A stretch of 23,344 nt of DNA from a virus: IMG/VR virus record IMGVR_UViG_3300007363_000106, positions 1 to 23,344 of that record. One strand, 5' to 3'. Both the position numbers and the translations under genes were made by a program. Position 1 is the first letter of the stretch, and every line of letters starts with the position of its first letter. Shown piece after piece: positions 2,609-20,317 of the stretch. Under the pieces are notes generated by a model that searched no databases, was not told the origin of the DNA, and was given only the letters and a program-made list of their open reading frames with translations.

Positions 2609-3391
2609 ATGTCTGACGAAGACCAGGCTGTAGCGGACATCAGCCCCGCGCCGGAACCGGAAGCTACGGCAGCACCGGACATTCCGCAGGAATCGACGCC
2701 GGAGGAACAGCAGCATACAAAGACGTTCTCTCAGGAAGAGTTGGACGCGATTGTAAGCAAGCGCCTTGCAAGAGAACAGCGTAAGTGGGAACGCGAGCAG
2801 GCCCAGCGCCTCGCGGAGTTACAGACTTCACGGTCTGCGACACCTCCCGCTGATCCGAATGATTTCGAGTCTGCCCAGCAATATGCAGAAGTGCTTGCTG
2901 AGCATAAGGCTCGGGAACTTTTGGCGCAGCGAGACGCCGCGAAGCAACAGGCTGAAATCGTAGAGGCCTACAAGGATCGCGAAGAGGAAGCGCGCGAGCG
3001 ATACGAGGACTTCGAGCAAGTCGCGTATAACCCGAACCTTCCTGTCACCGATCACATGGCCCAAGCCATCCAGGCGTCGGATATCGGCCCCGAGGTGATC
3101 TACTACCTTGGCTCCAATCCGAAAGAAGCCGGGCGCATTTCCCGTTTGCCGCCTATCTTGCAGGCAAAAGAGATCGGAAAGATTGAGGCTAATCTAGCTT
3201 CAAATCCGCCGGTTAAGAAAACCTCAACCGCGCCCGCACCTCTTGCTCCTGTCACGTCAGCCCGGTCAAACTCAGGCCCGCGATACGATACGGCAGACCC
3301 CCGGTCTATCAAGTCGATGTCAACGTCGGAATGGATTGAAGCGGAGCGGCAACGGCAGATCAAGAAGTGGGAGGCGCAGAACAGACGCTAA
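2609..3391 (+). CDS. Capsid scaffolding protein
   Basis: The product is 260 aa, very acidic at the N-terminus (residues 1-40, rich in Glu, Pro and Ala). The motif SQEELDAIVSKRLAREQRKW follows near residue 42, and then a long charged coiled coil extends to about residue 135. FS/TQEELDAIVxxRLAxE is a recurrent signature of phage scaffold proteins. The basic C-terminus (EWIEAERQRQIKKWEAQNRR) fits the coat-binding helix-turn-helix of P22-type scaffolds. It lies directly upstream of the coat gene, with 20 nt between them, as expected. It would guide procapsid assembly and then leave the capsid. Confidence 0.88.
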   Translation: MSDEDQAVADISPAPEPEATAAPDIPQESTPEEQQHTKTFSQEELDAIVSKRLAREQRKWEREQAQRLAELQTSRSATPPADPNDFESAQQYAEVLAEHKARELLAQRDAAKQQAEIVEAYKDREEEARERYEDFEQVAYNPNLPVTDHMAQAIQASDIGPEVIYYLGSNPKEAGRISRLPPILQAKEIGKIEANLASNPPVKKTSTAPAPLAPVTSARSNSGPRYDTADPRSIKSMSTSEWIEAERQRQIKKWEAQNRR

Positions 3392-3411: not shown

Positions 3412-3464
3412 ATGAGCAACAGCATCCTAACTATTGATATGATTACGAGGAAGGCTCTGGAGAT
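3412..3464 (+). CDS. Major coat protein, exon 1 (P22 coat family)
   Basis: ATG 3412 is preceded by AAAGGA and opens a frame that reads MSNSILTIDMITRKALEI before reaching TAG 3469-3471. That start is typical of P22-type coat proteins (xxLTxxMITxxALxxLENNL). Removing 3465-4229 joins this 53-nt exon to 4230-5373 and rebuilds the junction EILENNLVLT, with total length 1197 nt (398 aa plus stop). Unspliced RNA would give only a 19-residue peptide. Splicing is therefore needed for capsid production. Confidence 0.85.
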
Positions 3465-4229
3465 TAATTAGGTCTCCCCAGTTAGTGATAACTGGAAAAA
3501 CAACTGTGTGAATTCGGTGAACGTCATGATAGGGTTATATCATGAAAACACCGAGCCAAGACTCTGACGAGAATAATTCCGACCTGACACCGGAAGAACT
3601 CGTCCGAAAGAAAAACCGGGAGGCGGCTCGCCGTTACCGGGAACGCGATCCTGAAAGGCAGCGCCGCCGCATGAGAGAGTGGCGCGCTGCCAATCGGGAG
3701 AAAGCCAGAGAACAATCGCGCGAATGGCGCAATCGCAGATTGGCTAACGCCTCTCCCGAAGAGGAAGAACAGCTTCGCCAAACCGAGCGCGATAAAACTA
3801 AACGAAATCAGGACCGTATTCGCCGCGAAGTCTATCAGGCTTACGGCGGGTTTATTTGCGCGTGTTGCGGCGAGACGGAGCCTAAGTTTCTGTCCATAGA
3901 CCACATCAATAATGATGGCGCGACCGAACGCCGCAGCGGCCAATATAACGGTGGCGGCTCTGCTTTTTATCTGTGGCTGCGAAAAAACGCTTTTCCTGAC
4001 GGTTATCAAGTGCTATGTATGAACTGTCAGGTCGGTAAACATCGCAATGGCGGTGTTTGTCCTCATCAGTGTAAGGTGTAACGACTATCCCGAAAGGGAG
4101 TAGGGCCAAGCGGCCCGAAGCGCACAGCCCTCCTTATGGAGGTGAAGAGATAGTCTGCTCTGCATGGTGACATGCAGCGGCCCCAGAGATGGGGCGGGCC
4201 AGAATTAGCGATTCTGGTTGAACATTTGG
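3465..4229 (+). ncRNA. Group I self-splicing intron (T4 td-like, IA2 type) in the coat gene
   Basis: P1 pairs exon GGAGAT (3459-3464) with GTCTCC (3472-3477), ending in the hallmark U3464-G3472 wobble. P2 is CCAGTTA/TAACTGG (3478-3484/3489-3495) with a GTGA loop. P3 is CTGTGTG (3504-3510) with CGCACAG (4121-4127). P7 is GACTAT (4083-4088) with ATAGTC (4150-4155). P7.1 is CCC/GGG (4089-4098), P7.2 GGGCC/GGCCC (4103-4116), and P8 CCTCC/GGAGG (4129-4142). P9 is CTGCATG/CATGCAG (4160-4177) with a GTGA loop. Further hairpins lie at 4181-4194 and 4199-4217. The terminal G is 4229. The presence of P7.1/P7.2 and the P9 sequence recall T4 td. P4-P6 were not fully assigned. Confidence 0.9.
3542..4081 (+). 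CDS. Intron-encoded HNH homing endonuclease
   Basis: This 179-aa protein lies wholly inside the intron, in the P6 loop region, and its stop (4079-4081) abuts the P7 5' strand. AGGG (3531-3534) is a plausible ribosome site. Residues 15-100 form a highly charged Arg/Glu-rich helix with RRYRERDPERQ-like units, probably DNA-binding. Residues 104-179 are a Cys-type HNH nuclease: CACC (106-109), LSIDHINNDG (117-126) and LCMNC (158-162). C106/C109 and C159/C162 probably bind structural zinc, with D120-H121 catalytic. It probably cuts intronless coat alleles so that the intron is copied in. The target site is not visible here. Confidence 0.9.
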   Translation: MKTPSQDSDENNSDLTPEELVRKKNREAARRYRERDPERQRRRMREWRAANREKAREQSREWRNRRLANASPEEEEQLRQTERDKTKRNQDRIRREVYQAYGGFICACCGETEPKFLSIDHINNDGATERRSGQYNGGGSAFYLWLRKNAFPDGYQVLCMNCQVGKHRNGGVCPHQCKV

Positions 4230-5373
4230 CCTCGAAAACAACCTGGTGCTGACCCGCACCGTCAACCGTCAGTATGACGACTCTTTCGCCGTCGAAGGCG
4301 CGAAGATCGGCTCGACGCTGCGTATCCGTCTGCCTGACCGCGCTCTGGTCACTGACGGCGCGGCGCTTCAGGTTCAGGACGACAACGAGCAATACACCAC
4401 GATTGCTGTGTCCAGCCAGAAGCACATCGGCGTCAACTTCACGACTGCCGAACTCACCATGCAGCTTGACGATTTCGCCGAGCGCGTGCTGAAGCCTCGT
4501 ATTTCGCAGCTTGCTGCGTCTATCGACGCCGACGTTGCGAACAGCTTCAAGTATATCGGCAACTCTGTCGGCACGCCCGGCACGACTCCGGCCACCTCGC
4601 TGGTTCTGTTGCAGGCTCAGCAGAAGCTCAACGAGAATGCCGCGGTCATGTCGCCGCGCTACGCCACCGTCAACCCGGCCGCCAACGCCGCGCTGATCGA
4701 GGGCATGAAGGGCCTGTTCAACCCGGTTTCGGCGATCTCGAAGCAGTTCAAGAACGGCATGTTCGGCGAAGGCATCCTCGGCTATGACGAGTTGAATATG
4801 TCGCAGTCGATCAAGCAGTTCACGACTGGCTCGCGCACCGGCACTGTGACGGTCAATGCGTCGGTTACGACTGAAGGTTCGACCACGGTTGTTCTGACGG
4901 GCCTTGGCTCGACGGTCATCAAGGCTGGCGACGTGTTTACCATCGCTGACTGCTATGCCGTCAACCCGCAGACCCGTGAGTCGACCGGCTCGCTGTATCA
5001 GTTCGTGGCTCTGGCTGACGTTACCGCGTCGACCACCGCTTCGGTCACTGTCCCGGCTATGTATTCGGCCGGTCAGGCGCTCGCGACGGTTGACGCTCTG
5101 CCGGTTTCCGGCAAGGCCGTCACCTTCCTCGGCGCTGCCTCGACGCAGTATCCGCAGAACTTGATCTACCACAAGGACGCTATTGCGTTCGCTACGGCCG
5201 ATCTGCTCATGCCGCAGGGCGTCGACATGGCCTCGCGTCAGGTCCACAACGGCATCTCGCTGCGTATTGTTCGTCAGTATGACATCAATAATGACCGACT
5301 GCCTTGCCGTATCGATGTCCTCTACGGTTACAGCGTCATTCGTCCGCAGATGGCCGTGCGCCTTTGGGGCTAA
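4230..5373 (+). CDS. Major coat protein, exon 2 (P22 coat family)
   Basis: This exon opens with C4230, which completes the Ile codon begun in exon 1, and then reads LENNLVLTRTVNRQYDDSF and on to TAA 5371-5373. The body has coat features of the P22 family: the GAKIGSTLRIRLPDR strand block, a central VTVNASVTTEGSTTVVLTG insertion-domain-like beta region, and the C-terminal QVHNGISLRIVRQYDINND ... IRPQMAVRLWG ending. The spliced protein of 398 aa is slightly shorter than the 430 aa of P22 gp5. A UUCG-loop hairpin follows the stop. A naive start at CTG 4246 would drop the conserved N-terminal helix. Confidence 0.9.
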
Positions 5374-7324: not shown

Positions 7325-7861
7325 CTATGTTTTAAAATATTTGCCTCTATAAGACCCTGCCCGGCCTTTGGGCTGCCGACTGTTAGGGTCTTGCCGGTAA
7401 ATATTGAGCGCATGTTGCACGTTTTCACGATGCGTCAACAACTCTAGGTTTTCTAGCCGGTTATCGTCTCGTATGAGATTTATGTGGTTCACCTCTAATC
7501 TGTCAGGGATCGGCCCATTAAACGCTTCCCATACTGCTCTATGGATTCGGTAGTGCTTATACTGCCCATCTTTGCACGGCCTAAATATGCGGTATTCATG
7601 TTTATCCGGCGTCGTTCGCATTGGCCGATAAGTAACGTCGCCCGCCCATGTCTTCCCGTGTTTGATGGCCATAACGGTTGTAACACTGGTGTTCAGAAAC
7701 GCCGCGACATCTTTCAGTTTAGCGCCGTCTGCCAATCGTTTTTTAGCTTCTGCTACTTGTTCCGCCGTAAACAATTTGCCGCGCGCTACTCGACGCACGT
7801 TACCAAAATTGCTAATCTCATAAAGTCCTTCATATCCAAGGACTGCGCGCCACTCTTCCAT
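7325..7861 (-). CDS. Free-standing NUMOD4-HTH-HNH homing endonuclease, antisense
   Basis: This 178-aa protein is encoded on the opposite strand to its neighbours. Residues 1-24 are a NUMOD4 motif (EEWRAVLGYEGLYEISNFG). Residues 31-72 look like a helix-turn-helix insert (AEAKKRLADGAKLKDVAAFL, TTVMAIKHGKTW). Residues 103-150 are an HNH_3 nuclease with H107, the VNHIN motif (124-128) and NLELLTHRENVQHA. It has AAGGAG 7 nt before its ATG and its own promoter at 7887-7915. It is visibly AT-richer than the flanking virion genes. It was probably inserted between gp4 and gp10 by homing. Confidence 0.9.
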   Translation of the reverse strand: MEEWRAVLGYEGLYEISNFGNVRRVARGKLFTAEQVAEAKKRLADGAKLKDVAAFLNTSVTTVMAIKHGKTWAGDVTYRPMRTTPDKHEYRIFRPCKDGQYKHYRIHRAVWEAFNGPIPDRLEVNHINLIRDDNRLENLELLTHRENVQHALNIYRQDPNSRQPKGRAGSYRGKYFKT

Positions 7862-19588: not shown

Positions 19589-19848
19589 CTATCAACGTCC
19601 TCTTTAGACCATAAGCAGGCGTAGTTCTGGTTCATTTCGCGCATGTCAGACGCAAAGCGTTGTTGCAGCGGCGATAACTTGCCGCCGGGGCGCTTTAGCT
19701 CGACAAAGTGCGTTGACCCGTCCGCGAAGCAGACAACGCGGTCACTCACGCCGCGATTCGACGGCGAGACAAACTTATATGCTTTGCCGCCAACGGCTTG
19801 CACACATTTGACGAAATAACGCTCTATGTCCCGCTCCAGATCACTCAT
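19525..19848 (-). CDS. VRR-NUC domain nuclease
   Basis: The product is 107 aa from ATG 19848 (MSDLERDIERYFVKCVQ); the frame is open 16 codons further upstream, but this start overlaps the HNH stop as ATGAGTGA. The catalytic PD-(D/E)XK core is visible as NRGVSDRVVCFADG followed by THFVELKRPGGKLSPLQQRF (E and K of VELK, Q of LxxxQ). VRR-NUC proteins are structure-specific nucleases related to FAN1. In phages they pair with SNF2 helicases, as here. The last 20 residues overlap the helicase N-terminus in another frame. Confidence 0.88.
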   Translation of the reverse strand: MSDLERDIERYFVKCVQAVGGKAYKFVSPSNRGVSDRVVCFADGSTHFVELKRPGGKLSPLQQRFASDMREMNQNYACLWSKEDVDRWICAHTSTLPPISSSPMIGQ

Positions 19849-20317
19849 GGCGCGCAAATTCCCCATGATATTTATCGTGCTGTTCAGAGGCGACAAATTT
19901 GGCTAAGTCTAGGTCGTCAAAAAATCCTATGTGTTGCTGTTTACTGTGTGGCCGGCTTACAATAACGCGCCATTTAGCAGCTTTCTTATCCCACCGGACA
20001 TTTTTAGCCCCGCTTATATTATCGCGCCTGACTTTACGATTATGCTGATTTTGTTCTCGCGTTGCAGCGCGTAAATTTTCAATTTTGTTGTTAGTTTTAT
20101 CGCCGTCAATGTGGTCAACAAACGTCGGTGTATGACCGTGAAACATGAGGTAAATCAGTCTGTGGGCCTGATATTTTTTACCGTTTATGTTGACGCGCCA
20201 ATAACCAGTATTGGCAAGCCCGCCGGCAAGCGGCTTGTGACCTTTGCGAGTCTGTCGGTATATTAACTGTCCGTCTTCATACGCAAAAAGATCAATGACT
20301 TGTTGTTGAGTCAACAT
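19841..20317 (-). CDS. HNH-AP2 homing endonuclease at the head of the replication operon
   Basis: The product is 158 aa, with AGGAG 7 nt before the ATG. Residues 52-93 are an HNH_3 core (HRLIYLMFHG, VDHIDGDKTNN at 67-77, NLRAATREQNQHN). Residues 100-140 are an AP2-type DNA-binding domain (GAKNVRWDKKAAKWRVIV, GFFDDLDLAK). HNH-AP2 is a common free-standing phage homing endonuclease. It is AT-richer than its neighbours. Unlike the 7.3-kb element it lies in sense with the operon, overlaps VRR-NUC by 8 nt, and so may feed its translation. Confidence 0.9.
   Translation of the reverse strand: MLTQQQVIDLFAYEDGQLIYRQTRKGHKPLAGGLANTGYWRVNINGKKYQAHRLIYLMFHGHTPTFVDHIDGDKTNNKIENLRAATREQNQHNRKVRRDNISGAKNVRWDKKAAKWRVIVSRPHSKQQHIGFFDDLDLAKFVASEQHDKYHGEFARHE

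Follow-up and report, generated by a model that had tools for sequence, protein, structure and literature searches.

The divided coat gene

The stretch of DNA analysed, hereafter the window, is an environmental phage sequence of 23,344 nucleotides (IMG/VR record IMGVR_UViG_3300007363_000106, positions 1 to 23,344, to which all window coordinates refer). Downstream of a scaffolding protein gene it carries a P22-type coat protein gene in two parts, with a predicted intron and an intron-borne reading frame lying between them:

2609-3391, plus strand: scaffolding protein gene, upstream of the coat (phrog_8865, E 5e-31)
3412-3464, plus strand: coat exon 1, ending two bases into codon 18 (reading frame, homology to uninterrupted coats)
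3465-4229, plus strand: predicted group IA2 (td-like) intron, 765 nt, last base G4229 (RF00028, covariation, empty sites)
3469-3471, plus strand: in-frame stop TAG just inside the intron (reading frame)
3542-4081, plus strand: predicted HNH homing endonuclease gene, 179 aa, in an extension of P6 (phrog_2255, E 3e-8; alignment)
4230-5373, plus strand: coat exon 2, P22-type coat protein (PF11651, E 2.1e-34; phrog_283, E 1.7e-68)

The N-terminal start of the coat, MSNSILTIDMITRKALEI-N, runs into the TAG at 3469-3471, and the remainder of the protein is open from about 4230 with no start codon of its own, so that the reading-frame analysis returned the arrangement originally described. Exon 1 is likewise followed by an in-frame stop in the relatives, among the intron starts listed. 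Because the PF11651 match of exon 2 alone begins at profile position 26 (26-423), the coat N-terminus is absent from exon 2; exon 1 provides it, and the spliced product is a P22-type coat over the whole of PF11651, an assignment with which homologues with and without the intron agree. Joining 3464 to 4230 gives 53 + 1144 = 1197 nt, or 398 aa. In the nearest annotated phage, MW202483.1, the coat is uninterrupted, has the same length and is identical at 1014 of 1197 nucleotides and 380 of 398 amino acids, in keeping with the earlier expectation that the 398-aa product would align with P22-type coats. When the junction was slid from -6 to +6, a U before the 5' site coincided with a G before the 3' site at offsets 0 and +5. 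The second of these satisfies the U/G rule but introduces a stop codon, and 3464/4230 is left as the sole workable choice, as the original prediction had argued. The predicted spliced junction reads CTGGAGAT/CCTCGAAAAC. The interruption at codon 18 recurs at exactly the same codon in 58 other distinct relatives. With the intron in this gene, it is reasonable to suppose that splicing efficiency would act as a control of virion yield.

The predicted intron RNA and its reading frame

A permissive Rfam search of the window matched RF00028 over 3455-4177 (33.4 bits, E 1.4e-6); at the default gathering cut-off of 50 bits the window gave no match. The score falls short because the 540-nt reading frame makes the model place P7 wrongly, inside the ORF; the true P7 is formed by GACUAUC at 4083-4089 with 4149-4155. 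Relatives whose intron at this site lacks an ORF score 72.8, 64.3 and 64.0 bits, so a score above the Rfam threshold, one of the tests first proposed, was reached by three relatives and not by the window itself. This carries a warning for annotation, since the coat seems truncated and its intron is missed by Rfam at the default cut-off. The RF00028 E value, taken together with the 58 other relatives, argues that the intron is not a chance match. Its helices are as follows:

3459-3464/3472-3477, plus strand: P1, with a U3464-G3472 wobble at the 5' splice site; 96% paired
3478-3484/3489-3495, plus strand: P2; compensatory changes in 7 of 7 pairs
3504-3510/4121-4127, plus strand: P3; 100% paired, 2 pairs doubly changed
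3514-3519/3549-3554, plus strand: P4; pairing in 41 cores
3525-3532/3537-3544, plus strand: extended P5 hairpin; pairing in 41 cores
3555-3557/4075-4077, plus strand: P6; pairing in 41 cores
4083-4089/4149-4155, plus strand: P7, the guanosine-site helix; 7 of 7 pairs, 100% paired, invariant in 41 distinct cores
4089-4091/4096-4098, plus strand: possible P7.1, a subgroup IA hairpin; base 4089 is also the last of the P7 5' strand
4103-4107/4112-4116, plus strand: P7.2, a subgroup IA hairpin; compensatory changes in 4 of 5 pairs
4129-4133/4138-4142, plus strand: P8; compensatory changes in 4 of 5 pairs
4160-4166/4171-4177, plus strand: P9; 13 compensatory pairs together with P9.1 and P9.2
4180-4185/4190-4195, plus strand: P9.1; among these 13
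4199-4205/4211-4217, plus strand: P9.2; among these 13

Helix statistics were calculated over 41 distinct intron cores from which the ORF had been removed. From P1 to P9.2, 94.5% of helix cells were paired, and both bases had changed in 32 of 77 pairs; shuffled controls gave 22 such pairs on average and 27 at most, and sliding the partner gave 5-13. Pairing reached 99.6-100% in each of P3, P4, P6, P7, P8 and P9, and three of these (P3, P8 and P9) showed covariation; in L136 and L209, for example, the P3 strands CUGUGUG/CGCACAG have become CUGCGUG/CGCGCAG. In the 3' core, a stretch of 100 nt matches the td intron of T4-like phages at about 76% identity. The P1 with its terminal wobble and the G before the 3' site, both proposed from the window, recur among the relatives: P1 pairing holds at 96% across the 41 cores, and all introns listed end in G. 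GAG at codon 17, as P1 needs, was present in 28 of 28 introns fetched without the P1 pattern vs 42 of 90 intronless coats (p 3e-8, a value that is too good because the loci are related). With covariation, homologues with and without the insert and the Rfam matches of ORF-less relatives all in support, we put the probability that the coat gene is split at codon 18 by a self-splicing group IA2 (td-like) intron at about 0.95.

Three other readings of the gap were weighed. A free-standing HNH gene might have broken the coat, leaving a pseudogene or a shortened coat made from GTG 4246; there is indeed an HNH gene in the gap and an ORF starting at that GTG, but dozens of independent contigs keep both exons conserved and in frame, the group I core flanking the HNH reading frame is complete and has compensatory changes, and ORF-less insertions are known at the same base, all of which makes a broken coat highly improbable. 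Even less credible is a joining of the coat parts by ribosome bypassing or as protein (an intein or trans-assembly) in place of RNA splicing: the gap could in principle be bypassed, but it begins with an in-frame stop and has a ribozyme core whose P1 pairs exactly at the junction, and an intein is ruled out because the gap would then have to be open in frame. That the window is an assembly chimera we regard as next to impossible, since the same HNH gene recurs at 100% identity in three other IMG/VR records (L093, L159/L102 and L160), two of which match the window around the exon 2 junction.

For the intron, then, the computed structure suggests the following course. In the transcript, P1 forms between the ribozyme guide and the final six bases of exon 1; guanosine bound in P7 would cut after U3464, and the exons would be joined after G4229, at the computed junction, to restore an mRNA for the 398-aa coat.

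The intron-borne HNH gene, like the free-standing homologues and the signs of recent mobility described below, formed no part of the original description. Its protein has an HNH signature with paired cysteines, and the gene is interwoven with the ribozyme at both ends. Its first codons (MKTPSQ) double as strands of P5, P4 and P6, the 3' strand of P6 is made by its last codons, and its stop codon overlaps the P6/P7 junction. The start codon (3542-3544) lies within the 3' strand of the extended P5 hairpin, and an SD-like AGGG (3531-3534), which we infer to serve the HNH gene, lies in the 5' strand and loop of the same hairpin. The extended hairpin (3525-3544) is found in HEG-bearing introns, with a short P5 in its place in ORF-less introns, and from its position it looks like a brake on HNH translation. 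All 56 intron-borne HNH copies read have an intact ORF that begins MK(T/I)PSQ, a start absent from the free-standing homologues described below. Residues 1-9 are disordered in an AlphaFold model, which fits a leader dictated by the RNA. Sequence searches of Pfam, NCBIfam and the PDB with the HNH protein gave nothing useful, and a fold search returned weak HNH matches, the best being the Gme HNH nicking endonuclease (E 0.08). Cys-rich phage HNH endonucleases of the phrog_2255 type share the HNH signature and paired cysteines of the intron enzyme. The nearest phage proteins in databases are less than 60% identical to it and cover at most 64% of it, in the C-terminal part, and this holds for its relatives in cultured phages.

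States of the coat locus among relatives

Relatives of the locus were gathered from IMG/VR by three scans, with the coat protein, the P1 pattern and the HNH alignment, and the best 80 matches of each were taken. Among the matches listed there were at least 156 distinct sequences, in which we distinguish an intron at the same site (59, comprising 56 with the HNH gene and 3 without), an uninterrupted coat with a free-standing homologous HNH gene (24), an uninterrupted coat without the HNH enzyme (69) and coat loci that were cut (4), counts that depend on how the loci were fetched. Same-site introns thus number 59 vs 93 uninterrupted coats among these distinct sequences. Later additions were the ORF-less introns L120 and L123 and the HEG-bearing introns L122, L250 and L252. 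The best 80 coat relatives are the sole sample chosen without regard to intron or enzyme, and here the intron occurred in 3 and the upstream gene in another 3, while 72 had neither element and 2 loci were cut. The nearest coat relative in an isolate genome is an uninterrupted one, 82% identical, on a 769-kb contig of Rhizorhabdus histidinilytica (NZ_FUYM01000001.1); this locus is probably a prophage, and it gives a hint of alphaproteobacterial hosts.

The free-standing HNH gene lies between the scaffolding gene and the coat, at an insertion point some 21-23 nt ahead of the coat start and about 75 nt from the intron site, and stands just before the coat start or slightly overlaps it. In L184, L081, L214 and others it ends at or within the ribosome-binding site of the coat (gaps of -8 to +23 nt), and its last codons can contain the coat's SD sequence. 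The proteins encoded are about 62-71% identical to the HNH protein of the window. A second HNH scan added at least 73 new loci, some on contigs already seen, with the gene upstream of an uninterrupted coat in 59 and within the intron in 14; two HNH copies at one locus were found in none of these 73. No HNH relative lay away from the coat gene, among the matches listed whose surroundings were read, either in the 73 loci of the second scan or in the first.

No locus combined the intron with an upstream HNH gene of the same family when the coat neighbourhood of each contig was read. About 2 such loci in 59 would be expected by chance, hence mutual exclusion of intron and free-standing gene is suggestive and not secure as a statistical fact.

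Possible exchange between the intron and the free-standing gene

Changes of state appear to be recent. On a coat tree built with the 90 nt next to the insertion site left out, the four intron/HEG states need 33 changes, and near-identical phages differ mainly in the element that they hold, with the exon bases beside the site varying with that state. L116, which has the intron with its HNH gene, and L214, which is intronless with a free-standing HNH gene, show no mismatch in 700 bp upstream, an identity that extends to 21 nt before the coat start of L116. Exon 1 then differs at 4 of 53 bases, three of them within 9 bases of the site, and exon 2 has 4 mismatches in its first 14 nt and 3 in the remaining 1.1 kb or so; the mismatch pattern of L203 and L179 is the same. 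When like-state and unlike-state pairs were compared at similar coat identity, exon 1 was on average 76% identical in 6 independent unlike-state pairs vs 93-100% in 19 like-state pairs (p = 0.0008), and the distal coat of the six unlike-state pairs was 97% identical. Over the 40 bases around the site, a carrier resembles carriers of the same element from other coat lineages.

Read from these alignments, the state-linked exon flanks are marks of homing with co-conversion, and homing by the HNH enzyme is very probable. During co-infection, the endonuclease made from the intron would cut intronless coat genes near the site, and repair would copy the intron into the rival phage together with adjacent exon bases, whose footprint is what the alignments record. 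The intron could also have spread mainly by general recombination between co-infecting phages, with the HNH enzyme inactive or irrelevant. Phages recombine freely, a few introns have no enzyme, and ordinary homologous exchange followed by selection could yield the same pattern; against this, the ORF is intact in 56 of 56 HEG-bearing introns read, phages that are identical elsewhere have exchanged a tract with the insertion site at its centre, and the enzyme family is found at the coat locus alone among the matches listed. We therefore think general recombination an unlikely main route.

The intron enzyme and its free-standing homologue upstream of uninterrupted coats probably share a target region. 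Near-identical phages in opposite states suggest that the two forms displace one another: a single tract of conversion, running from the upstream insertion point as far as about +14 in exon 2, would exchange intron and free-standing gene, in either direction, in one step. This displacement we put forward tentatively, at somewhat below even odds. The free-standing gene might instead target another site, in the ribosome-binding region of the coat, and not compete with the intron at all, as its own position some 75 nt from the intron site would allow; but the free-standing proteins are close to the window's HNH protein, the differences in pairs that change state lie to either side of the intron site, and the flanks of free-standing carriers are alike across coat lineages, and we hold a separate target to be rather unlikely.

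The enzyme tree requires 3 changes between intron and free-standing homes, of which the starred branches force 2 (support is rough), an outcome at odds with a single transfer; yet an AU test does not reject a single clade (p 0.31 for the full set of rows and 0.20 once L136 is removed), so that one transfer or several, in either direction, would fit. An ORF-less intron as the ancestral state was also considered and is unsupported, as such introns nest in three different HEG-bearing subclades. The core of the ORF-less L089 equals that of the HEG-bearing L226 over 215 columns, from which it follows that the enzyme cassette was recently lost or gained, both being possible, with the ribozyme unchanged. 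If the enzyme does move between homes, the locus would show how mobile introns are assembled, stripped and displaced among phages of the present day. That wider picture, of one enzyme family at one capsid locus in alternating forms that evict each other with each conversion event, with 2-3 changes of home besides, is offered as a conjecture that we rate a little short of an even chance.

As in the td intron of T4, also of group IA2, the ORF of the coat intron ends where the 3' core begins. The two differ in host gene (thymidylate synthase in T4, a capsid gene here) and in enzyme, I-TevI belonging to the GIY-YIG family and the coat intron enzyme to the HNH. Introns in major capsid genes have been described before. 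The capsid gene of mycobacteriophage LittleE has a group I intron, with splicing shown by RT-PCR and protein sequencing, that encodes an endonuclease (PMC3706429), and a capsid-gene intron of lactococcal phage Tuc2009 is cited in the same paper. In LittleE, however, the capsid is HK97-like and the ORF, which is LAGLIDADG-like, runs on the opposite strand, in contrast to the P22-type coat and same-strand HNH gene found here. Since capsid group I introns are on record in other phages, the coat intron alone would be a further case of a known type; our literature search found no paper on it, with subscription journals thinly covered and an earlier description possible.

Two routes to composite introns have been reviewed, invasion of an intron that has a chance target site and collaborative homing (PMC3984707), where one genome contains an ORF-less intron as well as a free-standing enzyme with the same target (PMC3984707, PMC6083498). 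In the pathway of Bonocora and Shub, F-CphI and the psbA intron of cyanophage S-PM2 are a free-standing endonuclease and a group I intron that converge on a conserved gene, as here (PMC3984707, PMC6083498). In S-PM2, however, enzyme and intron occupy one genome, which the intron protects, whereas here the two were never seen together among the matches listed, and the free-standing enzyme is homologous to the one that the intron encodes. An enzyme and an ORF-less intron in one genome, which defines collaborative homing, were not found in the coat neighbourhoods read on each contig; the coat locus nonetheless resembles collaborative homing. Accounts of the origin of composite mobile introns have so far been based on few examples. 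Here one gene in one phage lineage occurs with an empty site, with an intron that lacks the ORF, with an intron that encodes the enzyme or with a free-standing enzyme of that family, so that the steps can be compared side by side, and with these states coexisting both the origin of mobile introns and the rivalry of the two forms become testable.

Another coat gene is split at a different site. In MW202674.1 (L230 1429-2944) a divergent P22-type coat is interrupted after HVDKG by about 215 non-coding nucleotides, which contain the P7-like motifs ACGACTA and GATAGTCTG and gave no Rfam match at E 0.1. The window itself has further endonuclease genes:

7325-7861, minus strand: NUMOD4 and HNH_3 endonuclease gene, opposed to the structural genes
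19841-20317, minus strand: HNH_3 endonuclease gene that overlaps the VRR-NUC gene lying directly downstream

An endonuclease gene occupies the place matching the first of these in MW202483.1 (L001 6069-6557), and the second, by analogy with the coat locus, may target the neighbouring VRR-NUC gene.
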